From: Haladaptatus sp. ZSTT2
Lineage (GTDB): Archaea > Halobacteriota > Halobacteria > Halobacteriales > Halococcaceae
Assembly: GCF_037081775.1 (NCBI RefSeq)
Contig: NZ_JBAMHQ010000004.1
Coordinates: forward strand, 1 to 37,263
Length of the DNA: 37,263 nucleotides
Direction: 5' to 3'
Of this stretch, positions 1,703-32,325 are shown piece after piece. The position numbers and the translations under genes were made by a program. The number at the start of each line of letters is the position of its first letter. The stretch's first letter is position 1. A model generated the notes under the pieces. It saw only the letters and a program-made list of their open reading frames with translations, did no database searches and was not told the DNA's origin.

Positions 1703-1854
1703 ACGTCTGGCAGCTCCGAAAATGCCAGCGTTGTGGTTCACTCCAAGTTCACAAACACAATCACCGACACCGCGATATCGTCATCACGATTCTCTGCGAG
1801 GCCTGCAATCGCCTCACGAAACATCGCCCACTCTGCAGGGGTGAAGGTGCGTGA
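1699..1854 (+). CDS. 51-aa zinc-ribbon protein
   Basis: An ATG at 1699 overlaps the previous stop (ATGA). A longer frame reaches back to 1657, but that would overlap the previous gene by 46 nt, so the shorter form is chosen. Residues 9-12 are CQRC and residues 33-36 are CEAC, with a basic, histidine-rich linker (HKHNHRHRD) between them. It may bind nucleic acid; this is inference from the basic linker and zinc site. It is coupled by GTGA to the large downstream gene. Confidence 0.65.
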   Translation: MNVWQLRKCQRCGSLQVHKHNHRHRDIVITILCEACNRLTKHRPLCRGEGA

Positions 1855-3821
1855 CCGACCGGCACCATGTAGGCGATGATAGAGACGAGGTCTCGATGGC
1901 GGATATTCGACGCGAAGACCAAGACGCAGAGACGCAAGAGGAGTACCTCTTTGGGGGTAACTACAAGACCAACGAGTGCTCCGAACAACCGTCTCTCCCA
2001 ATCGCTGCCGCAGGCCAGATGGCTTGCCGATTCTGCCACGAAGAATACCAGGGGATTGCAGCAGACTCAAACCACACCTGCGAAGAGCGTGAGAATCGTA
2101 GGCTACGCACTGATTTCTCGACGATTCGACCCGCAACCCACGAACTCAAAAGCTGGCTTCTCTTCCTCGACGACCCAGACAACCCCTACTACGCAACCAC
2201 CCCCAGCGAAGCGATGCTTTCGGCGTACTTCGCGCTTACCAACACCGCCCTCGACACCATTCTGAACGAAGACGTTGTCTTCACTCACCAGGGCGAACTT
2301 TGGCGCGTCAATGACGACGAAAACCAGCCTCGCTACTGGGAGGGTGGCATCGCCGGTCGCGACCAGGACGTCTTCGACCGCTTCATGGAGTTCAAATTCC
2401 GGCTTGAAGCAGTCGAAACCCCCGAACGTGGACTCACTATCACGGTCTCACCTCGATTCCCGGACGCTCGCCATCACAAAGACGAGACGAAATCGCTCGG
2501 TTTCCCAGCTGAAATCCCTCCGGGAGTCGCATTACAGGCTCAATCAGCCAACGTTGACCCCGACGAATACGTTCCCCTCCTGCAAGCTTTCGCTGACGTT
2601 GTCGATGTGAATCCGAAGTACTTCTCAGAGGAGAGACTCGCCGACCAGGTTGAGAACGACGACGGAGAAATCACCTCGTACTGCAATACTTGGGCGCTTG
2701 CTCGCTACGTTCGACTCGACCGTTTCGCCACTCGTACCCTCACCGGCCACGAGGGCGTCTTCCACGACCTCGCGAAAGCATCCATGCAGAACCGAGGTCG
2801 CGGCTCGTTCAAATGGGACGGTGAAAAAGCCGAGGGCTACAACGACCGCGTCGTCCTTTCTGGCCAGGACTGGGGACGACTCATCACTGGCCACGAGTGG
2901 ACTGCACGGGCGAAAGTCTATCACCCACGAAAGGTACGTAGCGAGTTTACGGCACTCGACGGAGACGACCCGCTCGCCCACCAGAAACTCGAAATCAACT
3001 ACGCGAAGCTCTCAGGTGATGGCAACATTCCCTGGCATGCTCTCGACGACGTCATCAGAGAGTTCGATGAGAAGCTTCTCGCCGTTCTCTCGGAAGCCGG
3101 ACTCCCCACCCACGCTCATGCAGACACATTCATCGAGGATCATCACTTCAAACGCATCGAACACGACCCAGACATCCTCGTTCCCGATCTCGGTCTTGAC
3201 ACTGTCAAAGCGGTCGAACAGCAGGTCGCCAGAGACACCCTGCTGAGTGCAAATCTCGGAGAAAAGGAACTCTCAGTCGCACGCATGATGGCTGACGGTG
3301 GCCGCAGTGCCGTCGAGGTGGCGAAAGAAGCGGGTTGTTCGACTTCGACGGTGTATCGAACCATCAGCAAGCTCGGTGATGCAGCCGACACCTTCGGCAA
3401 CGTCGTCGGGTACGTCGATGAGTACATTCGTAGCGAGGTCTCCTCGCTCTTCCAATCGCTTGAACGCACTGCTCAGTACACTGAACGCCGGCTTTCTGAA
3501 GTTGCAGCCGAAGCTGAAGCGTTTGCGAACGATACCGCAATGGGCCGCTGGGTACGAGCCCACGGCGTCAAACTTGTTGAACGGTATAACCAGACCACGT
3601 TCGAACTCTCAGGTGCGCTCACGCGAGCGGACGTCCAGCGCATAATGCGCGAGGGCTACGCGGCCGCGAAACGCACGGGTAGTAAGGCCGTGCTCACGCT
3701 CACGGACGCGCTCGTTCGCTGGCACAACCCGGATGGTGACCTTCGCAACTCAAGGCCATTCAGTGTGCTTAGCAATTCCGTGCTCACCCTCTTCGGCGCA
3801 CGCATTGGGCCCGCCCCCTGA
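1851..3821 (+). CDS. Large conserved-type protein with zinc finger and helix-turn-helix
   Basis: A 656-aa protein starting at GTG in a GTGA overlap; an in-frame ATG at 1896 is an alternative start. Near residues 59-77 there is a C-x2-C...H/C zinc motif, and residues 80-450 form a long mixed domain I do not recognise. Residues about 478-512 form a helix-turn-helix (LSVARMMADGG followed by SAVEVAKEAGCSTSTVYR), followed by a helical C-terminus. Proteins of this layout occur near integrases in haloarchaeal elements and may bind DNA for replication or control. It ends the left operon. Function is not proven; a replication initiator is one possibility, since no other Rep-like gene is visible apart from the MCM. 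Confidence 0.7.
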   Translation: MTDRHHVGDDRDEVSMADIRREDQDAETQEEYLFGGNYKTNECSEQPSLPIAAAGQMACRFCHEEYQGIAADSNHTCEERENRRLRTDFSTIRPATHELKSWLLFLDDPDNPYYATTPSEAMLSAYFALTNTALDTILNEDVVFTHQGELWRVNDDENQPRYWEGGIAGRDQDVFDRFMEFKFRLEAVETPERGLTITVSPRFPDARHHKDETKSLGFPAEIPPGVALQAQSANVDPDEYVPLLQAFADVVDVNPKYFSEERLADQVENDDGEITSYCNTWALARYVRLDRFATRTLTGHEGVFHDLAKASMQNRGRGSFKWDGEKAEGYNDRVVLSGQDWGRLITGHEWTARAKVYHPRKVRSEFTALDGDDPLAHQKLEINYAKLSGDGNIPWHALDDVIREFDEKLLAVLSEAGLPTHAHADTFIEDHHFKRIEHDPDILVPDLGLDTVKAVEQQVARDTLLSANLGEKELSVARMMADGGRSAVEVAKEAGCSTSTVYRTISKLGDAADTFGNVVGYVDEYIRSEVSSLFQSLERTAQYTERRLSEVAAEAEAFANDTAMGRWVRAHGVKLVERYNQTTFELSGALTRADVQRIMREGYAAAKRTGSKAVLTLTDALVRWHNPDGDLRNSRPFSVLSNSVLTLFGARIGPAP

Positions 3822-4389: not shown

Positions 4390-4418
4390 AATAAGGCCAC
4401 CAAATTCAGGGCCTTATT
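4390..4418. promoter_or_regulatory. Inverted repeat AATAAGGCC / GGCCTTATT
   Basis: A perfect 9-bp inverted repeat (4390-4398 and 4410-4418) with an 11-nt spacer. A third copy of AATAAGGCC lies at 4542-4550, about 30 nt before the TATA box of the GHKL gene. The recurrence suggests protein binding sites controlling that operon; the protein is not known. Confidence 0.45.
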
Positions 4419-4576
4419 CAGCATGATTGGTCGCGGAATAATTGCGAGATAGTCTGACAAGACCACCAATATCTCGTTACTCACCCGGATTAATTAGTAG
4501 ATAAGAAGTCTAAACCCGGCTCGTAAATTTTTACAAGTCAGAATAAGGCCAATTTCATTGAAATTAGCGGCAATTA

Positions 4577-4585
4577 TTTATATAA
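4577..4585 (+). promoter_or_regulatory. TATA box of the GHKL-HNH operon
   Basis: TTTATATAA lies 32 nt before the ATG at 4617, giving a start of transcription within about 10 nt of the start codon. No Shine-Dalgarno sequence is present, in line with a nearly leaderless mRNA. Confidence 0.6.
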
Positions 4586-4616
4586 CGGGGTCGTAGGGTC
4601 GGTACAAACGATTACT

Positions 4617-6536
4617 ATGAGCGAGGAAGAAATCAGTAAATCGATTGACGGAGACGGTATTGAGATTGATGGAGTGCCGACAGTCAGTAATGGCGAGGAA
4701 GAGAGTGGGTTCAATTTCAGTGAACCCATAGACCTGACTCCACAAAAGACAGGGCTGTTAGACCAACTTCGGGCCGACCTTGATATAACAGGGTCGTTCG
4801 ACGAAATCGGTGACAACTCTCTAGATGCCTTCGAACGGGTTCGTGGTGGAATGGGAGCGCTGCGAATCGAAGTCGAACACCGTAAGACAGACGAGGGCGA
4901 AGAGGAACTCGTAATCCGCGACAATGCAGGTGGTGTCCTACCGGCGGACCTGAATGTGTTCTTTTCGATTGGGTCCCGCGCAGGTGAAACCGGTGGTAGG
5001 AGTGTTCAACGGGGTGCTTACGGTATTGGGCTTAAGAAGGCGACACTTCGATTAGCTCAAGAAGTCACCTTCGCAACGCGGCATCAGGACCAGAAAGGGA
5101 AGAACAACCCCGGCTACGGGTTCACCATTTCTGAAGAATGGCTCAAAAGAGAGAGTGACTGGACGGTCAACCCCGAACCGTTCGACATTGAGGCCGGAAC
5201 CACCGAAATTCGACTCAGAGGCCTCCGATTCGACTGGGAGGAGCACGAAGAAGACATCCGAAAGAGTCTCGCATCAACCTACCGCCGGCAACTCGGCGGG
5301 AGCCCCTTCACCGAGAATTTCGACGTCTCCATCGAATTTCAGGGCGAGCCCTTAACACCTCCAAAAGGCATCAACTGGGGGTTCCCTGCCTTCGACGAAC
5401 TCTGGCCTCGGGAATTCGTCATGCAGATTGCTCCAGATGATGTCGACTTCGAACTGGAATCTCCAATCAAAATTCGCCTCGTCGTAGGACTTCTGGCGGA
5501 GAAGGACACAAATGCTACAGGCACCGACCTCTACGTTCAGAACCGGCTCATCCATGAGGCTCGAACCGATGAGCAGGGTGGGTATGATGTCCCTGGGGGA
5601 CTCCCCTCGTTCAACGATGCCCAGCACGGGCGGTTCAAGATGTGCGTCTCTCTGGAATCGGAGGCTGATGCTGCCGATCTGCCCTGGAACACGACCAAGG
5701 ACCGTATCTTCCCCGAGGACGAGAAGATGGTCGCAGTCTGGGAGAAATTGAACAACTTCGTTGACCGGTACTTCGCCGCAAAGTTCAGCAACGTCCCAGC
5801 GGATTACCTCGCGTTCGCGGCCGACGACGAAAAGGCGGCCAACAATGGCGAAATCGACGGGCCACTTGATTATTACGACCGTCAGAGAGTAACAGACAAG
5901 CCCATAAACGGGTTCCCGGACGTGAAACAGGTCGAGACCACGGCCCAGGCGCACGCAAAACTCGGCATCCAGCGGGCCGAATACTTCAACGACGACGACA
6001 CGACCCTCCGGAAGCAGAAGCAGCACGTCTACCTGACCCGGACGGCGACCTTGTTTAAGTCTGAGTTCGAACCGGGGACTGAGTACCTCAATGCTCCGAA
6101 ATCCATTATGGCGATCCTCCCGGACTTCGATGACGAGGATGAGGTCAATTTAACAATCGAGGAGGTGAAATTCGAAGCACGTCACCACGCCAGGATGGGG
6201 GTCCGGTACACGGGCATCGAACCGTGGAAGGAACCGCTCTATGAGGCGTACCTCCGGTTATTCGCGGGTGATGAATCAGAATTCGAGAACCTCACCGCTG
6301 TAGACGAACGGCCGCCCCTTCCCGACGATGGTGATGGTGACGGGCCCGATGGGCCTGACGTCAAGGGCACCAATAAATCCGAGGAGCGGTCGTTCGAGTT
6401 CAGCTCTGAAGGCTTCGAGACGGTCACAAATGTGTTCGGACTAAGTGACGATATGACTGCACAAGAACGCGGTGAGCGTATTGAGACTGCCGCCAAGCGA
6501 CTGAAGGAATTGGGCTTTAGCCTCTCGTTTGAGTGA
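4617..6536 (+). CDS. GHKL-family ATPase (MORC/Hsp90-type), probable defence protein
   Basis: A 639-aa protein. The N-terminal GHKL ATP-binding (Bergerat) fold is clear: N-box E63 followed by DNSLDA (66-71), G1 box RDNAGGV (101-107), and lid box GAYGIGLKKA (133-142). A transducer-like region follows to about residue 370, then a domain I do not recognise, and an acidic linker near residue 570 (repeated GDG/PDGPD). The C-terminal helix is SFEFSSEGFETV onward. It lacks histidine-kinase, MutL and gyrase features and is nearest in design to prokaryotic MORC-like ATPases, which are often linked with nucleases and modification systems. It shares an operon with the HNH gene (4-nt overlap). Likely role: ATP-driven DNA sensing or clamping that controls the nuclease (inference). 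Confidence 0.8.
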   Translation: MSEEEISKSIDGDGIEIDGVPTVSNGEEESGFNFSEPIDLTPQKTGLLDQLRADLDITGSFDEIGDNSLDAFERVRGGMGALRIEVEHRKTDEGEEELVIRDNAGGVLPADLNVFFSIGSRAGETGGRSVQRGAYGIGLKKATLRLAQEVTFATRHQDQKGKNNPGYGFTISEEWLKRESDWTVNPEPFDIEAGTTEIRLRGLRFDWEEHEEDIRKSLASTYRRQLGGSPFTENFDVSIEFQGEPLTPPKGINWGFPAFDELWPREFVMQIAPDDVDFELESPIKIRLVVGLLAEKDTNATGTDLYVQNRLIHEARTDEQGGYDVPGGLPSFNDAQHGRFKMCVSLESEADAADLPWNTTKDRIFPEDEKMVAVWEKLNNFVDRYFAAKFSNVPADYLAFAADDEKAANNGEIDGPLDYYDRQRVTDKPINGFPDVKQVETTAQAHAKLGIQRAEYFNDDDTTLRKQKQHVYLTRTATLFKSEFEPGTEYLNAPKSIMAILPDFDDEDEVNLTIEEVKFEARHHARMGVRYTGIEPWKEPLYEAYLRLFAGDESEFENLTAVDERPPLPDDGDGDGPDGPDVKGTNKSEERSFEFSSEGFETVTNVFGLSDDMTAQERGERIETAAKRLKELGFSLSFE

Positions 6537-7414
6537 TTATGGATTCCGAAAAGGCACTCGAGCTCAACATCACCGTGAACCAAGCTGGGGGTGGAACTGT
6601 GACCGCGACAATGCATGACAGCTCAGTCGAGGAGCGACTCCAACTCCTCAACGCTCGCGGAGCAACGCGTACGGGCGACACTTGGCGCTTGGAGACCGAC
6701 GACATGGGTGCGCACGCCGATGCCGCCCAGTACGTAATAAAAATGGTCTCCGATATTCTGACGCCGAAAGAGACGCCCGGGGAGGCTCGACAGGCGACCT
6801 TTGAGCGAGATGGGAACACTTGCCGCCTCTGTGGGGCAAATTTCGATGCCCCAGCGATCAAGGTGTCACGTGACCGTGTCAATACCCGTGTCCTAGACCA
6901 CGTCTATCCACAACGCGACGCAAAACCCATTCATCGCCCCCATGAGACGTGTAATTTAGTGACTGTCTGCGGTGGGTGTGATGATGTCTTCCTTCAGGGA
7001 GATAAATTCCGTATTGTTACAGACCGCCTGGGCTATCGGCCGCCGCCTACAGACCGACAACTCATCGCCTGCATACAGAAACGAGGTATTATCCGGTCTG
7101 ATTGGGCGTTAGATAAACTCAACGCGTCTCGAGAGGAGCCGGATCGACTGGAGCATGAGTACATCGCCGAGCGCCTCGGGGCATTAGCACAGATAGAGCT
7201 GATGAAGCCGTTACCCGATGTCGCGAAGAATGAGGGATTCGAAGTGTATGCGGTCAATATCTCTCATAGGGCGATCGTGTTTCTGGACCACAAGGCCGTT
7301 GACCGCCATCCGCGGCTACCGCAAGGCTTCGAGTTCGTAAACTCGCTGAACGGAGAAGACTATGTCTCGATGAACGAACAAAAGCGGGGGCGTGGGTCAA
7401 GCACACCCGCCTGA
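6533..7414 (+). CDS. HNH endonuclease paired with the GHKL ATPase
   Basis: A 293-aa protein; the start is GTG at 6533 (4-nt GTGA overlap) or ATG at 6539. The HNH domain spans about residues 88-155: zinc pair C97/C100, LDH (121-123) with the probable catalytic His123, H137, N141, and second zinc pair C146/C149. This is the zinc-stabilised betabetaalpha-metal fold with all key residues present. N-terminal residues 1-60 form a small beta-rich domain, and the C-terminal 140 residues are helical and unrecognised. It probably cuts DNA when licensed by the upstream ATPase. It resembles the logic of ATPase+HNH defence pairs such as Septu, but with a GHKL partner instead of an ABC-type ATPase. Confidence 0.8.
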   Translation: MIMDSEKALELNITVNQAGGGTVTATMHDSSVEERLQLLNARGATRTGDTWRLETDDMGAHADAAQYVIKMVSDILTPKETPGEARQATFERDGNTCRLCGANFDAPAIKVSRDRVNTRVLDHVYPQRDAKPIHRPHETCNLVTVCGGCDDVFLQGDKFRIVTDRLGYRPPPTDRQLIACIQKRGIIRSDWALDKLNASREEPDRLEHEYIAERLGALAQIELMKPLPDVAKNEGFEVYAVNISHRAIVFLDHKAVDRHPRLPQGFEFVNSLNGEDYVSMNEQKRGRGSSTPA

Positions 7415-7638
7415 GCACGTTTTTCCAACGTCTGTGCCAGTAGGGAAGCCGCACGCATCAGAAGGAGTGGAGTCTCGAAGGGGTTGCTGCACTGTTTTCG
7501 AGTCCGTTGAGAGCGCTTATGCACTCGCCTACGATTCCTGTGAATTCGACGTCATGTGAGGGATGTTACATGATAATCCGACGTATCGCTTAATTCTGGG
7601 GTTAGAGGTGTGATGCTGCGTGAATGGCGTTAAAGAAG

Positions 7639-9516
7639 TTAAATCCCAAGTTCTGAGAATTCCAATTCACCATCTGTAGTTCCAAATACTTCGTTTGAAT
7701 CTGGCGCGATACCGATGTCAGCCAACGACCTATCGACGAGCGTCGTCACGACCTCGACGTCTGACCACGTCACCTCACCTGATAACCGAGCGCGAGCGTG
7801 CGCCTCAGCAAGCCGCTGCACCGCATCGAGCATTCGGGCGGTCACCGGCAACGGAGGCCCGTCGAGGTCGGCCTCCTCGTCCTCGCCCTGGTAGCGCGCC
7901 GGAAGGTCGGTCTTCAAATCCGCGAACCACTCGATGAGCCGCTCACGAATCGCCTCGTCCTTGATTACTGGCTGAATCTTCTGCGCCTCGATAACGTAGG
8001 CACGCCACGCCTCTGGCTCGATAGAGGGCTCAACTGCATCCAGTTTCGAACCGTCCACGTCGTCACCACGCGCCAACTCACCCGACGTCTGACGCGACTC
8101 AACCATGTGCTTACCAATCGCCCGCACATGCTCGCGGTCCTCGACCTCGCGCATCGTGAAAATCAAGTCGAACCGTGAGAGTAACGGCGACTGCAACTCC
8201 ACCTCATCGACGAACTCGTTGGCCGGGTCGAAGTGTCCGCCGACCGGATTCGCCGCCGCCAGCAACGCCGTCTTCGCCGGTAAAATCGCGTTCTTCCCGG
8301 CTTTCGTGACGCGCACCTCTTGGGATTCGAGCGCCGTGTGCAGCGCATCAAGGTCGGACGTATCGCCCTTGTCGAGTTCGTCCACCACCGCGACGCCCTT
8401 GTTCGCCCGCACCAGCGTGCCCGCTTCAATCGAGAACTGCTCGTCAGAGAAATCATCCTTCGTGATGGCTGCAGTAAGCCCCGCTGCGGACGAGCCCGTC
8501 CCGTCGGTGAGCGCCGACCGAGGCGAGAGACGCGCCGCCGCTTCCAAGAGATTCGACTTCCCGACGCCCGGATCACCCAAGAGGAAGATATGGCTCTTGC
8601 CGCGATGCAGGGTGCCGTCCGGGGCGTGGCGCGCCCACGAGCCAAGAATCTGCAACACAATAGCGCGTTTCACATGTTCGTCGCCCTTGTGGCCCGGAGC
8701 AAACGACTCGACCAACGTCGCGAGCGGGTCGGGCGTGTTCGCGATACGCTGGATTTCCTCAGCGTGCTCGCTCGTGTCGACCTCGCGCGGGTCTGCGTTC
8801 TCGGGGATGACGTTATTCACCAAAAATCGCTTGCGAAAGCGCGCGCGTCGCTTGTGCGAGTAGGCGACGTACTGACCGACCAACGTCACCCGCTGGCCGC
8901 CCTCGATGGTACCGCAGATGTCGTCGAGCAGGTGGCAGTCAATCGACGCCGTGGCTCCGTCGACCGCTTCCTCGGGTGGCTGCTGCAGGCGAACCTTCTG
9001 GTGGTCTTCGAACTCACTTATCCGCTCGTTCAGCCGGAAGGGGCCTTGTGTGTCACAGCCCATGCACTCGAACGGCTCGCGAATCGTGCCGAACCCTTGC
9101 GAGAGTTTCGAGTCCAAACCGCAGCGCAAGCACTCGAAAACTCCCGTTTGCAAGAGCGGGCCGACGTCGGTGCGTTTCGTTATTTGTCCCTGGAAGGCAA
9201 CGAGCCGGTCTTTGTGCTCGACACGCTCCTCACCCACCGACAGCGTCACGTCCTCGGGCAGTTCGACGAACCGCACATGGGATTGGCTCATCGCGCCATC
9301 GGGGTCGGGATACTGTGCGAGGGCGGCATCGAAGTGGTCAAGCATTATCTCAGGCCGGGTGACGACGTCGTCTGCGAGCCCGGGCGCGACCTCGACGAGC
9401 GCCTCAAAACTCACTTCCAACGAAACCCGCTCAGGGTAATCGTCGAACAGGTCGAGGATTGCTTCGTGGCAGATGTCACGCAACGCGGTCTGGCACCGCG
9501 AAACGACGTCGCTCAT
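7639..9516 (-). CDS. mcm: MCM replicative DNA helicase
   Basis: A 625-aa MCM protein. N-terminal domain: OB fold with zinc pairs near residues 129/132 and 151/154. AAA+ domain: Walker A GDPGVGKS near 314-321, Walker B VAVVDELD near 375-382, sensor 1 AAANP, arginine finger LLSRFDLIF near 445-453, and a C-terminal winged-helix-like tail. It unwinds DNA 3' to 5' as a hexamer at the fork. The ATG at 9516 overlaps the stop of the preceding gene (ATGA); a GTG at 9525 is in frame but less likely. It is the last gene of the long minus-strand train, so replication and particle genes would be co-expressed. It is divergent enough from a host copy to suggest the element brings its own helicase. Confidence 0.92.
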   Translation of the reverse strand: MSDVVSRCQTALRDICHEAILDLFDDYPERVSLEVSFEALVEVAPGLADDVVTRPEIMLDHFDAALAQYPDPDGAMSQSHVRFVELPEDVTLSVGEERVEHKDRLVAFQGQITKRTDVGPLLQTGVFECLRCGLDSKLSQGFGTIREPFECMGCDTQGPFRLNERISEFEDHQKVRLQQPPEEAVDGATASIDCHLLDDICGTIEGGQRVTLVGQYVAYSHKRRARFRKRFLVNNVIPENADPREVDTSEHAEEIQRIANTPDPLATLVESFAPGHKGDEHVKRAIVLQILGSWARHAPDGTLHRGKSHIFLLGDPGVGKSNLLEAAARLSPRSALTDGTGSSAAGLTAAITKDDFSDEQFSIEAGTLVRANKGVAVVDELDKGDTSDLDALHTALESQEVRVTKAGKNAILPAKTALLAAANPVGGHFDPANEFVDEVELQSPLLSRFDLIFTMREVEDREHVRAIGKHMVESRQTSGELARGDDVDGSKLDAVEPSIEPEAWRAYVIEAQKIQPVIKDEAIRERLIEWFADLKTDLPARYQGEDEEADLDGPPLPVTARMLDAVQRLAEAHARARLSGEVTWSDVEVVTTLVDRSLADIGIAPDSNEVFGTTDGELEFSELGI

Positions 9517-9788
9517 ACGAACCACCCGATGAGCGTTTGCACGTCTGGCAGCGCCCGAAGAAGCTCTTGAGCGCGCCCGAGGTCAATCGAGATGAGTCCC
9601 AACAACAACAGGCCCAAGAACACAACCACGACGGTGCGCGCCGTCTGCAAGCCGCTGGCAGCTAGGTGGCCGGCGGTGCGAGCGCGCCCCGACCACGCGA
9701 CGAGCGACACCAACACCAACAGCAGAGAGACGCTCACGCCGCGCACGCCAAGGCGAGAGAGTAGGTCTGCAATCGCCTGCTCGAACAC
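9513..9788 (-). CDS. Small membrane protein (two spans)
   Basis: A 91-aa protein. The start is GTG at 9788, sharing one base with the TAG of the preceding gene and preceded by a purine-rich GGGAGGGAG site. An upstream start at 9860 would overlap the neighbour by 73 nt. Two hydrophobic spans are visible, about residues 17-33 (VSVSLLLVLVSLVAW) and 52-69 (TARTVVVVFLGLLLLGLI). No family recognised. It sits between the large surface protein and the MCM, so a role in the same envelope or membrane complex is likely. Confidence 0.75.
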   Translation of the reverse strand: MFEQAIADLLSRLGVRGVSVSLLLVLVSLVAWSGRARTAGHLAASGLQTARTVVVVFLGLLLLGLISIDLGRAQELLRALPDVQTLIGWFV

Positions 9789-12700
9789 TACTTCTCCCTC
9801 CCGACGAGTTCGAACACCTGTTGCGGCGTAGACGCTCTCTTCTCTTTCTCCTGTCGCCAACTGTAGATGAGGTAGGCGACGAGCAGCACGCCCGCGATGC
9901 CAGCCAATGGAAGGGTCGCAGAAAGCGCCGTCCGCACTGGCCCGAGAATCGCATCCGGCGCGAGTAACATGATACCGAGCACGAACGCCACGCCCACGGC
10001 GAGCAAGACGATAGGTCGCCGGTAGACGGGCAGTCCGTCAGGCGTGCGTCGTTCGGTGTACGCGACCGCGAATCCGATGATGGCGAGCACGAGCACTGCA
10101 ATCAGGCCGGGATTCATCACGGGCATCGCCTCGACGACGGTGTTCGTCGTCTGGCCAATGAACCCGCCCGGCCCAGTTCCGACGGGGCCGGTTGAGGTCG
10201 AGTTGCCCGAGTCGGCGCGAATTTCGAGGGTGCCCTCTCGGTCGCTCCCTTCGAACACGGCTGGCTCGCCCGCCTCTGCCGAGTCGAGTTGGATGCCATC
10301 GCTCTCAGAGTAGAGAATGTAGCTCGTTCCCGAGTCAGCAGCCAAGTGCGTGAACTCGACGTCGTCGCCGTAGTTCGCACCCGGCGCAACCTCAAAGGTT
10401 GGTTCCGTGCTCGATGGCGACGAAACCGAAATCCAGACCTCGCCCGTCAATGGCTCAGCCTTCACAGGAATCGACGACACCCGCGCGGTGCCCCCAACCT
10501 CGGCTGCAGGTAACACAAGCTGCTGGCCGCCGTTACTCGCGATGACCGTGTGCTCGTCCCCGTTCCACGTTTCGTTGTAGAGATAATGCACGCGGTGGGC
10601 GTCTTCGGTGCCGCCCACGGCGATATACGAATTATTGTTCCAGTCGTCGATGCGGATGCCGCTATCGAGCGACTCACCAACGGGCGTCGGGTCGGTCACC
10701 GTTATTGCACCGTTGTTTACACTCACTTTGCTCCCAACCGCACGCACCTCGATAGTGTCGCCTGCCGAAATCTCCCCGAGTTGCGCCGTGAGCGTCGTCC
10801 CCGTGAGCGAATACTCAGACGGCGTGAGCGGGTCCCACGCGCCGCCGTTCGCGCGAACTTCGAGCGAACGAATCGAGTAGACGGTTTGGTCGAATGGAAC
10901 GGTGAGCGTCGCGTTCTGCCGGTCGCTCGAATAGGTCTTGCTCACGTTGTAGCGCTCGCTCCATTTCTCGCCCTGGTAGGCCACCGACTGATTGTCGACG
11001 GCCTCGTGGCGGTAGTTGAATCCAACTTGGCCGGGCGCGGCAGACCCACCCGGCGAGGTTACCGAGATGTTGATTTGGTTGGTGCCCTCGCGTACCCAAC
11101 TCGTGCTCGTGTTGAGCGAGACCGTCTCGCCGTCTGCGAGGGTTCCTGAGTGTGAGACCACGTTGCCGTTGACCTCGACGCTCGGGTCGGTCGTCTCGGT
11201 CACTTCGCGCATCGCGAGCGCGACATCCACGTCCGAGTTGTCGGTCGAGATGTCGAGCGCGTTGTCCGCGAGTGAGAGCGGCGCGTCGTAGGTGACGGTC
11301 TCGCCGGGGTCGAGCACGCCCGAATGCGTGATTTCATCGCTTGCGTCCCCGTCGAGGTCGATGCCGACGTCTTTCGTTTTCTGCACTTCCTGCATCACGA
11401 GGTCGACCGTCACGTCCGAGTTGTCCGTCGAGATGTCGAGGCTCGAATCAGAGGTCGAGAGTGGCGCGGCATAGCTCGCCGTTTCGCCATCGTCGAGCAC
11501 GCCCGAGTGGGTGATTTCGTCGGTCGCATCGCCATCGAGGTCGATACCCACGTCCTTCGTCACCGTTCGCTCGCGCATATCCAGATACCAGTCAACCGAC
11601 CCACCCGAAAACTGGAAGTCGAGGTCGCTGGCGTCTTTCGAGAGGTCGAAATCAACCACCGTTGTCGAATTAATGGCGGTAGTCCCGAAGTTGTGCGTCG
11701 TGCCGTCCGAAGCAACCACTGTGAGGTCGCCCGGTCGCGTCGTCACGCTCGCGTTCACCGCCCGCGAGGTCGTGCCCGTCCCGGTGAACGAACTCCACGT
11801 GCCAGACGGTGAGTTGTCCGTGCGCACTTGGTAGAGGCTATCTCCCGAGACGTGCCGTAACTCAATCGTGACCGTTCCACCCGTCGTCCGATAATCCGAA
11901 ATGTCGACCGTGTGCGTCGTCCAATCTGTCGAACCGGAAAGCGTGATTGTCCCGACTTGCGTCCCACCCGAATAACTCCCATCCGGCGCGCCTTCAACAA
12001 CGAACACGTCGAAATCCTCGCCACCGCCACAGGAGAACGTACAGTCCGCTTCGATAGCGAAATCCGTCAAGATGGCATCCGCGCCAACATCCATGCGAAT
12101 CTCCATGTTGTCGCCATTTCCGAAGCCAGATTCCGTCCCGGTCTGCGACGAGAACGGACTATAGGAGCCTTCCTGTGCTGTGACGCTTAGTCGCGGCTCG
12201 GTTGGCTGGTAGCTCGGACCTATTGGGTCGCTATTCCCGCCGATGCTGATAGCCGTCGCGCCGCCCGTTATCGTCCCCGATTTATCCTCGTCGGTGAGTG
12301 TTTCGATGCCGGTGAGCGTGATTTCTGGATTATTCCCCGCTTCTGGCCCGGTTGGGTCGAGATTCCCACCCACGTCGATAGGAATGCTCTCACCGTCTCC
12401 TTTGGTCGCCGTGTAGTTATCCCACGTCGTTGAGCCCACACCCGTCAGCGTGATTTCGGGCGAGCCACCCGGCCCCGTTGGCGAGGTCGTGCCATCCACC
12501 GCAATCGGAATGGTGCCGCCGTCTGATTCGACCGACGAGTAGTTATCCCAGTTGTAGCCCGTCGAGCCCGTCACGTCCAGCGTGAAGTTCTCGACCGCAT
12601 CCAGGTCGCTCACTGTGTAGCTGTACTGAGCGCCGTCGACCGCAGGCGAGCCCGTCAGTTGGATTTCCCCGCTGAAGGTGACGACGTTCGTCGAGAAATG

Positions 12701-13303
12701 GGGAACGTCAAACAGCAAGAGGTCGCCCTGTCGCGTCACGGGTGCAGTCCACCGATCCCCAGACTCGTGGACGCCATACACAGCAGGCGGCACATAGCCA
12801 AGTGAGTTCTCGACTGCCCCGACTGGCACTGCAATCTGCCGCCCGTCAGCGTTCACATCGTCCGAAAGTACAAGCGCAAATTTCGGATTCGAGCACTGCG
12901 GGTTCTTCTCGGCTGCAGGTCCGTTACAAGCGACTTGGCGACCCATCGCTCGGGCTTCCGTCGAGATTGTCACCTCCAACGTCTCAGCGTGCTTTGAAGA
13001 CATCACCGAACCTCTGAGGTCGTCAACCGTCGGCATCTTCTCTTTCGCGTGGTCCGGCACGTCGGCTTTGACGTTCGAATCTGGAACGCCGACCATTCCG
13101 GGAGCGCTCGCGAGCGCCACGCCCGCACCTGCGCCCACCGCGCTCACGAGTATGAGCATCGCGAGGGCTATTGAGGCGAGCGCGCGCGAGAGGCCGGGGC
13201 CCTCACTGCGCCCACGCCCGGGGGGTGTTTCCATATCAGTCTCAGAGTACGCGCGCGGGAGGGATGACAGAACTCCGAGAAGTTCCGCGAGATTTCGGCT
13301 CAT
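9788..13303 (-). CDS. Large secreted, membrane-anchored surface protein with repeats
   Basis: A 1171-aa protein, the largest in the minus-strand train. Residues 40-66 form a hydrophobic signal/anchor (ALASIALAMLILVSAVGAGAG). A long beta-rich, Thr/Ser/Asp/Gly-rich ectodomain with many NxS/T sites follows, suggesting N-glycosylation. Near residues 250-375 there are about three degenerate repeats of IPI.VGG..DPTGP...PEITLTG, and residues about 582-703 contain two near-identical 61-aa units. After a TGP-rich linker come three C-terminal spans (about 1072-1091, 1103-1122, 1129-1147) and a basic tail. The whole resembles a spike or adhesin exposed on a particle or cell surface. Its start overlaps the preceding stop (ATGA). 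Confidence 0.8.
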   Translation of the reverse strand: MSRNLAELLGVLSSLPRAYSETDMETPPGRGRSEGPGLSRALASIALAMLILVSAVGAGAGVALASAPGMVGVPDSNVKADVPDHAKEKMPTVDDLRGSVMSSKHAETLEVTISTEARAMGRQVACNGPAAEKNPQCSNPKFALVLSDDVNADGRQIAVPVGAVENSLGYVPPAVYGVHESGDRWTAPVTRQGDLLLFDVPHFSTNVVTFSGEIQLTGSPAVDGAQYSYTVSDLDAVENFTLDVTGSTGYNWDNYSSVESDGGTIPIAVDGTTSPTGPGGSPEITLTGVGSTTWDNYTATKGDGESIPIDVGGNLDPTGPEAGNNPEITLTGIETLTDEDKSGTITGGATAISIGGNSDPIGPSYQPTEPRLSVTAQEGSYSPFSSQTGTESGFGNGDNMEIRMDVGADAILTDFAIEADCTFSCGGGEDFDVFVVEGAPDGSYSGGTQVGTITLSGSTDWTTHTVDISDYRTTGGTVTIELRHVSGDSLYQVRTDNSPSGTWSSFTGTGTTSRAVNASVTTRPGDLTVVASDGTTHNFGTTAINSTTVVDFDLSKDASDLDFQFSGGSVDWYLDMRERTVTKDVGIDLDGDATDEITHSGVLDDGETASYAAPLSTSDSSLDISTDNSDVTVDLVMQEVQKTKDVGIDLDGDASDEITHSGVLDPGETVTYDAPLSLADNALDISTDNSDVDVALAMREVTETTDPSVEVNGNVVSHSGTLADGETVSLNTSTSWVREGTNQINISVTSPGGSAAPGQVGFNYRHEAVDNQSVAYQGEKWSERYNVSKTYSSDRQNATLTVPFDQTVYSIRSLEVRANGGAWDPLTPSEYSLTGTTLTAQLGEISAGDTIEVRAVGSKVSVNNGAITVTDPTPVGESLDSGIRIDDWNNNSYIAVGGTEDAHRVHYLYNETWNGDEHTVIASNGGQQLVLPAAEVGGTARVSSIPVKAEPLTGEVWISVSSPSSTEPTFEVAPGANYGDDVEFTHLAADSGTSYILYSESDGIQLDSAEAGEPAVFEGSDREGTLEIRADSGNSTSTGPVGTGPGGFIGQTTNTVVEAMPVMNPGLIAVLVLAIIGFAVAYTERRTPDGLPVYRRPIVLLAVGVAFVLGIMLLAPDAILGPVRTALSATLPLAGIAGVLLVAYLIYSWRQEKEKRASTPQQVFELVGREK
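11195..11560 (-). repeat. Two tandem 183-bp units inside the surface-protein gene
   Basis: Unit 1 (11378-11560) and unit 2 (11195-11377) each encode 61 residues that start TKDVGIDLDGDA and include EITHSGVLD and LDISTDNSDV. A shorter, diverged third unit (HSGTLADGETVSLN) follows. Sharing of codons suggests a recent duplication. Such units could expand or contract by recombination and change the length of the surface protein. Confidence 0.8.
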
Positions 13304-23344: not shown

Positions 23345-24133
23345 ATGCCACAGGCAGTCTTCCCGTACCCGGGTGGTAAATCGCGCTTCGCATCGTGGAT
23401 ACTCGACTACGTCCCTGAGCACCGCACGTTCGTCGAAGTGTTTGGCGGCGCTGCGGGCGTCCTGGCCAACAAAGACCCCGATTGTTCCGGCGTTGAGGTC
23501 TATAACGACGTCGACGAAGATCTCGTTCAATTCTTCACAGTCCTTCGCGAGCAGCCAGACGAGCTCGTAGAGTGGCTGCATCAGGTTCCCTATTCGCGGC
23601 AACTGCATTCTGAATGGGCGCAATACTACTATCGGGGCTATCGGCCAATCGATGATGTTGAGCGGGCAGGTCGGTTCTTCTATCTCAGATACTCACAGTG
23701 GGGTGCAAGCTACTCCTCCAATAGCGGGTTTGCCACGAGCAAAGTGAATAGTCGGGCACAATCTTACTCGAACAAGATTGACAAGCTCCAGGCGTTCGCT
23801 GGCCGATTTGATGCAGTGATAATCGAAAATTTAGATTGGCGTGACGTGCTTGAGAAGTACGATAGTGCGGAGACAGTGTTCTATCTCGACCCGCCCTACG
23901 TTGGGAAAGAAGATTACTATCCTGCTGGGGTAATCAACCACGATAGGTTGGTCGAATCTCTTTGTGACCTTGAGGGGGACGCGATCTGCTCATACGAAAA
24001 GCTCCCAGACGACATTGATGGACTATTCTCGGTGACTCGCGATGGCGAAAAGCGATTCATCAACAACGGAAAGAGTGGTGAGGCCAAGGACGCGGTTGAG
24101 CGACTACTCTTCAACTTCGACCCAACTGCGTAA
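23345..24133 (+). CDS. D12-class N6-adenine DNA methyltransferase
   Basis: A 262-aa Dam-like (D12) enzyme. Motif X PYPGGKSR (7-14) and motif I FVEVFGGAAGV (29-39) bind S-adenosylmethionine. The catalytic motif IV DPPY is at 182-185, in VFYLDPPYVG. All key residues are present and the length is typical of the family. It methylates adenine N6 in a short target. No cognate nuclease lies beside it, so it may be an orphan that protects the element from host restriction or marks it for regulation; the large type IIG enzyme 4.5 kb away has its own methylase domain. Confidence 0.9.
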   Translation: MPQAVFPYPGGKSRFASWILDYVPEHRTFVEVFGGAAGVLANKDPDCSGVEVYNDVDEDLVQFFTVLREQPDELVEWLHQVPYSRQLHSEWAQYYYRGYRPIDDVERAGRFFYLRYSQWGASYSSNSGFATSKVNSRAQSYSNKIDKLQAFAGRFDAVIIENLDWRDVLEKYDSAETVFYLDPPYVGKEDYYPAGVINHDRLVESLCDLEGDAICSYEKLPDDIDGLFSVTRDGEKRFINNGKSGEAKDAVERLLFNFDPTA

Positions 24134-28698: not shown

Positions 28699-31600
28699 AT
28701 GTCTGAATCTCCCTCACCGACGGTTGGATCTCGAGATGATTTCGTTGAAACTGTCATCAGTGAGTACAGCGACCTCTACAGCGAAATCGAAGAAGGTGAA
28801 CGTGCAGAACACGACTTGATGCCGCGCGTCGTCGATCACCTCTTTATCGAGGCGCTCGGGTGGGAGAAATCCGACTACCAGCAGGAAGACGACTGGAACG
28901 ACGTCCGGTTCTTCGACGAAGACCGGAACCCTGTCGTAATCGTGGAGGGTAAACGAAGGGGTGTTAATGTTGACAAAGGCATTGACCAGGTATTCCGGTA
29001 TGCTTCCGAGACCCCGTACGCGCGGTACCTGATCAGTACCAATGTCGACTCGATGCACGTCTACGAACGGTGCGACGGGTCGAACCCAGACGCAATCACG
29101 TGCCACGACGTGAGCGCGAAACTCGTCACAAAAATACCGTTTGAAGGGATTTGTAACCGAGTCAGTGGCGGTGCGATCAGCGATGAACTGTCGCTCGACG
29201 AAAAGCAGAGAGTTAAACGGTTGTTCCGGTTGCGGAAAGAGGAAGTCACGCATGCAGATCGGTACAGTGATTTCACCCTCGGCAGTCGCCAGGATGTTGA
29301 CAACGACGACGGGTTCGACAATCTAATCGATACGCTTCGGCTGTGTCTCGAAGACTACCTTTTCCCGTACACTCTATCGGCCTTCGATAAGTTCGAGAGT
29401 CGCTACGAGGAGTTCGAACGCGAACGCTCAGAACTTGAGGAACAGATAGAGCGCCTCGAGGAGAGCGGGCACGATGACACGGAAATCGCGGAGTTAGAGG
29501 ATAAACTGGCCGAGCTGAAGGACGACTACGAGATCTACAATCAGTTCCATTCTGACTACGAAACTTGGGTCAGACTATCGAATCGCCAGGACAACGAGGA
29601 GGACGAAAACAAGGAGGTGTTCTGTCGGGAGAGTGTTTACGTCCAGTTGAACAAAATTCTCCTTATCCGTATTGCTGAGGACAAGGATCTCGTCAACCAG
29701 ATGGTGTCAAACGGCGGAGTACACCGGTATTTCGAGTTCTGGGACGACTACACCAGATACGTCGATCGTGACTACATCGATCTGTTCGAAACTGCGTCTG
29801 AAGAACTTAGCGAGGTCTACGACTATCTGTACTCCCGTCGGTTGTTCGACTGGGGCATTCAGTCCGATTCAGAACTCGACAATGTCCTTCAGCGCACACT
29901 TTGGCACCTAAACCACTACGACTTCGAAAATGTCGATCGGGATGTTCTGGGACACCTGTATCAAGAACACTTGCCGCCAGAAGAACGGAAGGCACTCGGA
30001 GAATTCTACACCCCTGTCGCCGTTGTTGACCTGATACTCGACAGCGTCGGATATACCACGGACAAGCAACTTGAGAAGGAACAATACGACCTCATCGATC
30101 CGGCATGTGGTTCAGGAACGTTCCTCGTCAGAGCAGCGAAGCGCTTGCTTGAACGGCTAGACAAAAAAGGTGTTCCACCGCGAGATGCGATTGAAATCGT
30201 CCAAGAACGCATTCACGGGCTCGACTTGAACCCGTTCGCTTGCCATATCGCAGAGCTGAATCTTCTGTTCCAAGTGATTGACCTTTATAAAGAGGTCAAG
30301 GACGACAACCCAGACTACACGCTCGACCGATTCCACATCTACCGGACAGACAGCCTGCGCGCCGAAACACAAGAAAGCCTGACAGCGATGTACAGCAGTG
30401 AACTGCAACGCCAATACCGTGAAGAGCGCAAGCAGGCGGCGAGCGTGAAAATGCGTGAAGACTACGGGTTTGTTGTTGGAAACCCGCCGTACGTTCGCAT
30501 CCAAAACATCCCGAAAGGCCCCGCGAGAGATGAATACGACGAGTACGACACTGCGCACTACAATTACGACATCTACATCCTGTTCATGGAGCGGGCTGCG
30601 CAGTGGCTGGCCGAAGACGGCACCCTTGGTTTCATTATCAGCAACAAGTTCACCGAGAACCGCTACGGAGCGAAAATCCAGGACTATCTCCTTCAGAATT
30701 ACCACATCAACGAAATCATCAACTTCGGTGATGTGAGCGTATTCGAGGGTGTGCAGTCGTATCCGATGATCTTTATTGGGGATAGAATCAACAAGAACTC
30801 CCCATTCCGGTCGTCGGATGATTTCGAACTCAAGGAAGACTACTCCTTCACATACGCCGGAGTAACCGAGGAACTCCCGGAGATCACTCAAACCGCGTTG
30901 AACGGGGCGAACGGAGATAGGAGTAGTTCTGATGCACGTGAACGTGAGAAAGAAGGTGGGAAGATTGCCGAGCTGATTCGCGCAAGCATGCCAAAGACAC
31001 CCGGGGGCACACCACCCACTAATGAGGAGTTGATGAAGCGCATTACCGAGCTGGCTCCTGATGCGAAAGTATCTCAACCACCCTTACAGGTGTACCCAAT
31101 GAAGGCCTCAATGTTGTTGGCTGCTGATGAGTGGCAATTCATTCCTCAGGATGAGCACGAAGTGATGGAGGCAATGGAAGACGCCGCTCGTGAGTTCGGA
31201 GAATACGACGGGTCTGTCGCGAATAACGGTGTACAGACCGGATCGAACGACATTTTCGTCATCGACGAAGCGACCATCGAGGAATATGGCATCGAAGATG
31301 AGGTCGTCCATCCCACGCTTGGTGGCCGTGACGTTGTTCGTTGGCACACCAACGCGATGAACAAGTACATTCTGTACACTACCCCGGACACAAATCTGGA
31401 CGAACTCGATGGAGCAAGAGAATACCTGGAAGATAACAGAGACGGACTCGAAGAACGCTACTGTGTTACCGACAACCGGCGCAAGTGGTATGAGCTGGCT
31501 GAATACCGCCCTGGCGTTTTCGACAAGAACAAGGTCGTCACGCCGGACATTTGCTACTATAACAACTTCTTCAACGACGAAGACGGCGATTTCTACTCTC

Positions 31601-32325
31601 TGAACAGTACCTATGTAATGTTCAGCGAGGAACTGGCATCTGACTACTTAGTCGGAGTACTGAATAGTGACCCGGTGCAGTTCTATATGCGCCGAACAGC
31701 CCCGCAGTATGGGAACGACTATTTGCGGTACATCACCAGCTATCTGTTCAAAATTCCGATTCCTGACCCGGCTGAGGCTGATGATAGTGTAGTTCAGACG
31801 GTAGTGGATGCTGCGACTGATTTGAAAGAGCTCTCGAAGGGCTATCAGGAGGCCAAAGAGATTGTTGCAACTCCAGAGCTGGTGTTCGAGCTTGAGGACG
31901 TCGACAGGTCATCAATGTCGTTTGCAGGGTACATCGAGTCTATGAATTTAAGTGGTGGAGACGCAGATGTCTCCCCGAATATCGACGGAACGACCATTCG
32001 GTTGAACGTGCAGGATACAATCGAGTTCGTCAACGAAAACGTCGCTGAAGCGTTTGCGACGTTGATACAGTTGCTAGAGGTGAAAGCGGGAAGTGACCTC
32101 AAAGAACTTGATGTTCCGTCCTCTGAGGAAGAGCTGTTCGCCGTTGTGGACGCGCTCGAGGCGGCCGCAGAGCGCACTGAAGCGGATGTCAAGACTGGTG
32201 GGAAGTTGGAGGAGGAGTTGAACGAGGCAGTGTTTGAGCTGTATGGTTTCAGTGAAGAGCATCGCGAGTTAATTCTCGAGCGCGTTGACAAGCCGGAGAA
32301 CCCGTTAGACGCCAAGGTTCGCTAA
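28699..32325 (+). CDS. Type IIG restriction-modification enzyme (Eco57I-like)
   Basis: A 1208-aa single-chain enzyme. N-terminal endonuclease domain: VVIVEGKRRG with E83 and K85 of a PD-(D/E)XK site after an acidic strand. A coiled coil lies at about 225-270. The adenine methyltransferase core carries FYTPVAVVDLIL, motif I DPACGSGTF (467-475) and catalytic NPPY (595-598). C-terminal TaqI-like target-recognition region, about residues 800-1090, and a helical end. It methylates and cuts DNA near a short asymmetric site and needs no partner gene. PglX of BREX has a related methylase but lacks this nuclease, and no BREX genes are nearby. All motifs are intact, so it is probably active. Confidence 0.88.
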   Translation: MSESPSPTVGSRDDFVETVISEYSDLYSEIEEGERAEHDLMPRVVDHLFIEALGWEKSDYQQEDDWNDVRFFDEDRNPVVIVEGKRRGVNVDKGIDQVFRYASETPYARYLISTNVDSMHVYERCDGSNPDAITCHDVSAKLVTKIPFEGICNRVSGGAISDELSLDEKQRVKRLFRLRKEEVTHADRYSDFTLGSRQDVDNDDGFDNLIDTLRLCLEDYLFPYTLSAFDKFESRYEEFERERSELEEQIERLEESGHDDTEIAELEDKLAELKDDYEIYNQFHSDYETWVRLSNRQDNEEDENKEVFCRESVYVQLNKILLIRIAEDKDLVNQMVSNGGVHRYFEFWDDYTRYVDRDYIDLFETASEELSEVYDYLYSRRLFDWGIQSDSELDNVLQRTLWHLNHYDFENVDRDVLGHLYQEHLPPEERKALGEFYTPVAVVDLILDSVGYTTDKQLEKEQYDLIDPACGSGTFLVRAAKRLLERLDKKGVPPRDAIEIVQERIHGLDLNPFACHIAELNLLFQVIDLYKEVKDDNPDYTLDRFHIYRTDSLRAETQESLTAMYSSELQRQYREERKQAASVKMREDYGFVVGNPPYVRIQNIPKGPARDEYDEYDTAHYNYDIYILFMERAAQWLAEDGTLGFIISNKFTENRYGAKIQDYLLQNYHINEIINFGDVSVFEGVQSYPMIFIGDRINKNSPFRSSDDFELKEDYSFTYAGVTEELPEITQTALNGANGDRSSSDAREREKEGGKIAELIRASMPKTPGGTPPTNEELMKRITELAPDAKVSQPPLQVYPMKASMLLAADEWQFIPQDEHEVMEAMEDAAREFGEYDGSVANNGVQTGSNDIFVIDEATIEEYGIEDEVVHPTLGGRDVVRWHTNAMNKYILYTTPDTNLDELDGAREYLEDNRDGLEERYCVTDNRRKWYELAEYRPGVFDKNKVVTPDICYYNNFFNDEDGDFYSLNSTYVMFSEELASDYLVGVLNSDPVQFYMRRTAPQYGNDYLRYITSYLFKIPIPDPAEADDSVVQTVVDAATDLKELSKGYQEAKEIVATPELVFELEDVDRSSMSFAGYIESMNLSGGDADVSPNIDGTTIRLNVQDTIEFVNENVAEAFATLIQLLEVKAGSDLKELDVPSSEEELFAVVDALEAAAERTEADVKTGGKLEEELNEAVFELYGFSEEHRELILERVDKPENPLDAKVR

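Follow-up and report, generated by a model that had tools for sequence, protein, structure and literature searches.

The analyzed window, a stretch of 37,263 bases that makes up the entire contig C4 of a haloarchaeal genome, contains a tandem pair of genes for a MORC-type GHKL ATPase (P0001) and a probable HNH endonuclease (P0002). We give about even chances to the reading that an integrative haloarchaeal element carries this pair as a two-gene restriction or defence cargo, in which a methylase-less MORC-type GHKL protein is combined with an HNH effector. The evidence for this reading includes two intact tandem ORFs with their motifs, operator-like sites upstream of them, their location on a mobile element, and the defence genes found around relatives of the ATPase.

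The GHKL ATPase and its relatives

P0001 (4617–6536, forward strand) is a protein of 639 amino acids with the start codon ATG4617. It is composed of a GHKL domain (approximately residues 60–175), an S5-like region (approximately residues 195–365), and a family-specific C-terminal region; the S5 assignment is putative and follows the MORC/paraMORC layout given in PMC2292703. Residues 63–172 match the Pfam domain HATPase_c_3 (9.2e-12) above its curated cut-off, and HATPase_c_3 and HATPase_c are the only Pfam domains found in this protein. The N-box (E63IGDNSLD70, corresponding to E63xxDN67xxD70), the G1 box (D102NAGG106; DxAGG), and the G2 box (G133AYGIGLK140; GxxGxGxK) are all complete, and the G194TT motif is present as well. 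In a multiple alignment of P0001 with seven relatives sharing 22–31% identity (alignment A1), the residues E63, D66, N67, D70, D102, G105, G106, G133, G136, G138, and K140, as well as K361 from the S5 region, are invariant. Both the completeness of these boxes and the invariance of their key residues bear out the first-pass annotation, which had described all GHKL boxes as intact.

The label "MORC-like" proposed in the same annotation is backed by the HATPase_c_3 match and by the PDB search with the A1 family profile, where MORC proteins came first: MORC2 (1.2e-7), MORC4 (2.2e-6), and MORC3 (4e-5), followed by weaker matches to MutL (0.006), HtpG (0.0062), and Topo VI-B (0.0067). It should be noted that MORC is the nearest of the GHKL families when the A1 profile is used and not when P0001 is searched alone. 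The top NCBIfam match of P0001 alone is Topo VI-B (1e-5, well under the cut-off), and therefore the MORC placement depends on the family profile. P0001 satisfies six of the eight constrained positions of the MORC S5 motif GhXhhpXXRhl (GTDLYVQNRLI at residue 302), and of the 36 listed ORFs, 6 match this motif strictly. On a GHKL tree of 30 rows built by a quick method, P0001 forms a long unplaced branch (1.69) to which no sister group is assigned. P0001 may belong to MORC proper or to one of the subfamilies paraMORC1–5 described in PMC2292703. A model predicted by AlphaFold for P0001 plus one relative (mean pLDDT 31.8) was too poor for use or for a fold search.

The A1 profile detected the GHKL family in 30 of the 392 genomes of the order. 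A second sample, taken at the phylum level, gave 19 of 392 genomes at E <= 1e-8 and added only distant GHKL matches, the weakest of which are probably Topo VI-B proteins, as judged from the length and the neighbours of one of them (L113). No relatives of P0001 were found in the phage search, and the IMG/VR scans, which reach close relatives only, returned none for either query, P0001 or A2. The A2 scan of genome contigs had a single match, the Pseudomonas locus L075.

The probable HNH protein

P0002 (6539–7414, forward strand) has 291 amino acids when translated from ATG6539, or 293 from GTG6533. It has no match in Pfam, NCBIfam, or PADLOC, and none in the PDB up to E 1. Among the 11 PHROG families that match it at E <= 0.1, ten are HNH endonucleases, and the top HNH match (2.4e-7) extends across residues 67–148. 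Numbered from ATG6539, the motif residues are the Zn-knuckle cysteines C95xxC98 and C144xxC147, D120 and H121, N139, and D148; the histidine given earlier as H123 is H121 in this numbering. The earlier statement that all HNH residues are intact holds for D120, H121, N139, and both CxxC pairs and fails at the last canonical position. The residue that follows the second CxxC in canonical HNH proteins is usually His or Asn, and it is Asp148 in P0002 versus His in its relative L064. In the other two of the three distant P0002 relatives identified (L063 and L065), the active site seems to have degenerated. The AlphaFold model of P0002 alone, with a mean pLDDT of 35.4, was likewise unsuitable for use or for a fold search.

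Gene junction and upstream region

The two genes abut in tandem with either start codon of P0002. The 4-nt overlap noted in the first-pass annotation exists only with GTG6533, whereas ATG6539 leaves a 2-nt gap.

The repeated sites reported previously in the upstream region were confirmed. The motif AATAAGGCC has three copies in the window, at positions 4390 (+), 4410 (−), and 4542 (+), all of them upstream of the ATPase gene, versus a chance expectation of 0.13; none of 100 shuffled sequences reached three copies. The first two copies make up the inverted repeat AATAAGGCC-N11-GGCCTTATT (4390–4418, no strand), a candidate operator, and a genome-wide motif search showed that this 9-N11-9 arrangement is unique in the genome even when two mismatches are allowed. 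The third site (4542–4550, forward strand) precedes the TATA-like box TTTATATAA (approximately 4577–4585, forward strand) by about 27 bp; this box was read from the sequence as a candidate archaeal promoter and sits between this site and ATG4617; a promoter at TTTATATAA would mean a short leader ahead of the start codon. The AATAAGGCC sites resemble operators. Of the upstream genes examined, the nearest (1851–3821) encodes a DUF7845/HTH protein that matches a phage transcription-regulator family, and this protein is a possible candidate regulator of the AATAAGGCC sites.

The carrier element

The 15-base sequence TCCCTCCTTTGGCTT is present at both ends of contig C4 (1–15 and 37249–37263) and at both ends of the chromosome contig C1. 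At the C1 end, it forms the 3' terminus of a gene for tRNA-Thr (CGT), and at the C1 start, it is preceded by the same 104 bases as at the right end of C4. Based on these repeats, the tRNA-Thr 3' end, and the shared 104 bases, we infer that C4 is an element integrated at the tRNA-Thr gene with the 15-base repeats as its borders. An integrase match was found near the right end of C4 (35917–37191). The assembly is split at the TCCCTCCTTTGGCTT repeat, and the integrated and excised forms may both have been present. The GHKL and HNH gene pair is thereby placed as mobile-element cargo. In the 25.9 kb of annotation examined for the plasmid with the nearest MCM, nothing was recognisable as a homologue of the pair.

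The gene that follows P0002 encodes an MCM helicase (7639–9525, reverse strand) and is convergent with the pair. An ORF at 9788–13303 encodes a protein of 1171 amino acids that lacks a PHROG match and, judging from its sequence, is apparently secreted or membrane-bound. The MCM gene brings up the scenario of an element-maintenance or repair module, in which a MutL-like ATPase and a nuclease would act next to MCM on replication or recombination intermediates of the element. Its position as the next gene and the occurrence of MutL and Topo VI-B among the more distant profile matches of the ATPase are in line with this scenario, which we nevertheless consider highly improbable: the convergent MCM gene lies outside the operon, a MutS-like gene is absent among the window proteins scanned, and the GHKL relatives mostly adjoin restriction-modification (R-M) and defence genes rather than replication genes.

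Two methylase genes were found farther along the element, one for a D12/Dam enzyme (23345–24133; Pfam 4.8e-23, and 5.9e-20 for NCBIfam dam, under the cut-off) and one for a PglX/type IIG-like protein of 1208 amino acids with an HSDR_N_2 region (28699–32325). The window has 69 GATC sites versus 166 expected and 17 CTAG sites versus 56 expected, both strongly under-represented. Scarcity of GATC and CTAG is common in haloarchaea and does not discriminate between the readings considered here.

Neighbourhoods of the ATPase relatives

We further analyzed the flanks of 29 other haloarchaeal GHKL loci. This count excludes three duplicates (L048, L066, and L067, which repeat L007, L006, and L008, respectively), the bacterial loci L010 and L075, the loci L063–L065 that have no GHKL gene, and the weak matches L109–L111; the latter three were examined separately and contain neither D12 nor a P0002-like gene. 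In 11 of the 29 loci, the GHKL gene has a D12 adenine methylase gene as its same-strand neighbour, at most 101 bp away, whereas no D12 adjoins it in the other 18. Neighbour genes were predicted mechanically by taking the longest ORF, and 103 of the 114 listed proteins were scanned, the other 11 having been left out by hand with no stated rule. The families listed among these 103 neighbours include 12 D12 methylases, 5 UvrD/PD-(D/E)XK proteins, 3 GmrSD, 3 PycTM, 3 Methyltransf_35, and 2 C5-methylases, in tallies (PADLOC and Pfam) that cover the 25 commonest families and could hide a single HNH neighbour.

A Pycsar-cyclase-like protein (7.9e-16) and PycTM are encoded directly after the ATPase in L073, where profile searches confirmed the tandem order D12, GHKL ATPase, Pycsar-cyclase-like protein, and PycTM (4411–9007). 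The loci L013 (143–4723) and L058 (8595–10992) are similar to L073 by gene order and sequence starts; the GHKL gene of L058 (5077–8552) is split by a probable insertion, an oppositely oriented ORF of 388 amino acids. A profile match to DptF was found near the GHKL gene of L070, and AAA and McrBC genes are located by the GHKL operon of L071. In L070 (5727–11898) and L072 (5531–11684), the GHKL and D12 genes are directly followed by DptF, which was profile-matched in L070, and then by further ORFs. A GHKL ATPase in tight tandem with a profile-tested Methyltransf_35-type protein was observed in L060, L061, and L062, with a C5-methylase also present except in L060; a locus from another family of the phylum, L108, looks similarly arranged. 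Among bacteria, the distant GHKL relative of Pseudomonas (L075, 2589–7551) is divergent from genes that match PtuA (5.2e-261) and PtuB (2.6e-113), and the split GHKL relative of Rhizobium (L010, 2627–7546) is divergent from genes annotated as an AAA ATPase and an endonuclease.

By its neighbourhoods, the GHKL family of P0001 is a restriction/defence lineage. Since its members occur among R-M and defence genes, the defence role suggested by the first-pass annotation is plausible. The same neighbourhoods raise an alternative to the cargo unit, namely a split R-M system in which the pair would restrict DNA and the D12/Dam enzyme or the PglX/type IIG-like protein of the element would modify it. 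The gene most often found beside the GHKL relatives is D12, by both loci (11 of 29) and proteins (12 of 103), and the element does encode a D12/Dam enzyme. However, this enzyme is encoded 15.9 kb away from the pair, and with a profile built from three GHKL-linked D12 proteins it reaches 73.7 bits versus 309–516 bits for ten distinct D12 proteins in nine GHKL loci, although L058 and L050 have D12 neighbours that reach just 20–23 bits. We regard the split R-M system as a rather unlikely explanation.

Co-occurrence of the two genes

P0002 has matches in 4 of the 392 order genomes, one of which is its own; in the remaining three, the match is confined to residues 71–174. These three loci have no GHKL gene within the 10–12 kb fetched. 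Two further samples gave 2 of 125 genomes, the same as before, and none of 146, respectively; there were no matches in the plasmid or phage collections and no relative in IMG/VR, where the search reaches close relatives only. P0002 is nearly an orphan. Conversely, no P0002-like protein passed the inclusion threshold near other GHKL loci; the lone sub-threshold hit (0.012) was a chance match to an ORF of 92 residues in L073. Seven further GHKL loci also have no P0002-like protein. The first-pass annotation had proposed a search for co-occurring homologues as a check of its two-gene system, and this search found no P0002-type HNH protein beside any other GHKL gene examined. GHKL plus HNH as a conserved two-gene system is thus not established, and one instance is not enough to demonstrate a conserved partnership. 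P0001 and P0002 may represent a single young pairing.

The lack of a conserved partnership also bears on the possibility that P0002 has no relation to the ATPase and that its gene, either decayed or a free-standing HNH gene, merely landed behind the ATPase gene, with the GHKL protein working alone or with other genes of the element. In favour of this possibility are the Asp at the third HNH position, the degenerate look of the active sites in L063 and L065, and several GHKL relatives (e.g., L012 and L074) that have no obvious same-strand partner. On the other hand, the two ORFs abut (−4 or +2 nt) and leave no space for a second promoter, and P0002 keeps D120, H121, N139, and both Zn-binding pairs. 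We consider an accidental neighbour unlikely.

Proposed mechanism and significance

Under the preferred reading of the pair as a restriction or defence cargo unit, the predicted ATPase P0001 would dimerise upon ATP binding and clamp or loop DNA, similar to MORC, MutL, and Topo VI-B. The presumed trigger is non-self DNA, which the GHKL protein may sense either as unmethylated or incoming DNA or as an active replication or entry intermediate. It would then license the HNH protein, which would be translated from the same mRNA and may form a complex with it, to nick or cut the sensed DNA, and this putative nuclease activity would exclude viruses or rival elements. Since the host would be harmed by a nuclease acting without licence, the upstream inverted-repeat sites may serve to keep the pair regulated.

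A broader and more speculative proposal, to which we assign a low probability, is that MORC-type GHKL ATPases serve archaeal and bacterial defence as an exchangeable sensing or clamping module for varied effectors, such as HNH alone, D12 with a Pycsar cyclase and effector, D12 with DptF, D12 with McrBC, or the Septu pair. The pair from the window would then be the smallest, methylase-free form, which a mobile element carries to exclude rivals. The association of one GHKL lineage with a D12 methylase, Pycsar, DptF, McrBC, or Septu makes the shared sensor a testable hypothesis. Prokaryotic MORC-type ATPases are relatives of the eukaryotic MORC proteins that silence transposons and viruses, and their cooperation with nucleases is largely untested; the compact haloarchaeal pair, if active, would offer a tractable model.

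Comparison with known systems

Several described systems combine an ATPase with a nuclease or include a GHKL protein. Septu shares the design of an ATPase plus an HNH nuclease, and relatives of P0001 in L075 and L010 (the latter by annotation) are divergent from PtuA/PtuB-type genes; however, PtuA is an SMC/ABC-type ATPase, whereas P0001 is of the GHKL type, and Septu was rejected because neither P0001 nor P0002 has a PtuA or PtuB match in PADLOC. The MzaB component of MZA is a GHKL ATPase with a weak PADLOC match to P0001 (15.2 bits, E 0.0014). MZA was rejected, as P0001 scores 12.2 versus the NCBIfam cut-off of 850 bits and no other Mza component was detected by PADLOC in the five window proteins scanned. 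Tiamat TmtA gave weak matches, within the ATPase domain, with the P0001 relatives from L074 (2.1e-7) and L013 (3.7e-5); the TmtA models are 1302–1655 amino acids long versus 639 in P0001, which itself has no TmtA match.

A GHKL–nuclease fusion, VcSduA (paraMORC3, Shedu type I-D), protects against phage, and its ATPase has been proposed to control the nuclease (PMC12137116). The window pair is similar to VcSduA, for which the anti-phage activity was shown, in joining a GHKL ATPase with a nuclease. It differs in that P0002 is a separate protein of the HNH type, whereas VcSduA is fused with a PD-(D/E)xK nuclease of the DUF4263 family. Shedu was not supported for the pair: P0001 contains only HATPase_c_3 and HATPase_c, P0002 has no Pfam match, and DUF4263 was found in neither.

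The closest parallel is provided by the prokaryotic MORC and paraMORC1–5 families. Iyer, Abhiman and Aravind (2008, PMC2292703) assigned the GHKL ATPases of the MORC and paraMORC families to R-M systems that include both adenine and cytosine methylases, placed HNH nucleases in SNF2-helicase type operons, and predicted operons of paraMORC1 with HNH endonucleases. Other associations of paraMORC with R-M systems are covered in PMC8011034 and PMC3710099, and haloarchaeal methylases in PMC5867850. Among open-licence PMC papers, we found none on a haloarchaeal GHKL and HNH pair. The GHKL partner of an HNH nuclease, called unusual in the first-pass annotation, had thus already been predicted in 2008 (PMC2292703). 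P0001 resembles these families in having a GHKL domain and an S5-like module with intact ATP motifs, and also in its mobile and sporadic occurrence and the R-M and defence neighbourhoods of its lineage; the operons predicted for them contain HNH nucleases and DAM/DCM methylases. In contrast to these operons, the window pair has no adjacent methylase or helicase, and the HNH gene is the only such partner of the ATPase. The pair is a variant of the kind predicted in 2008 rather than a categorically new system.
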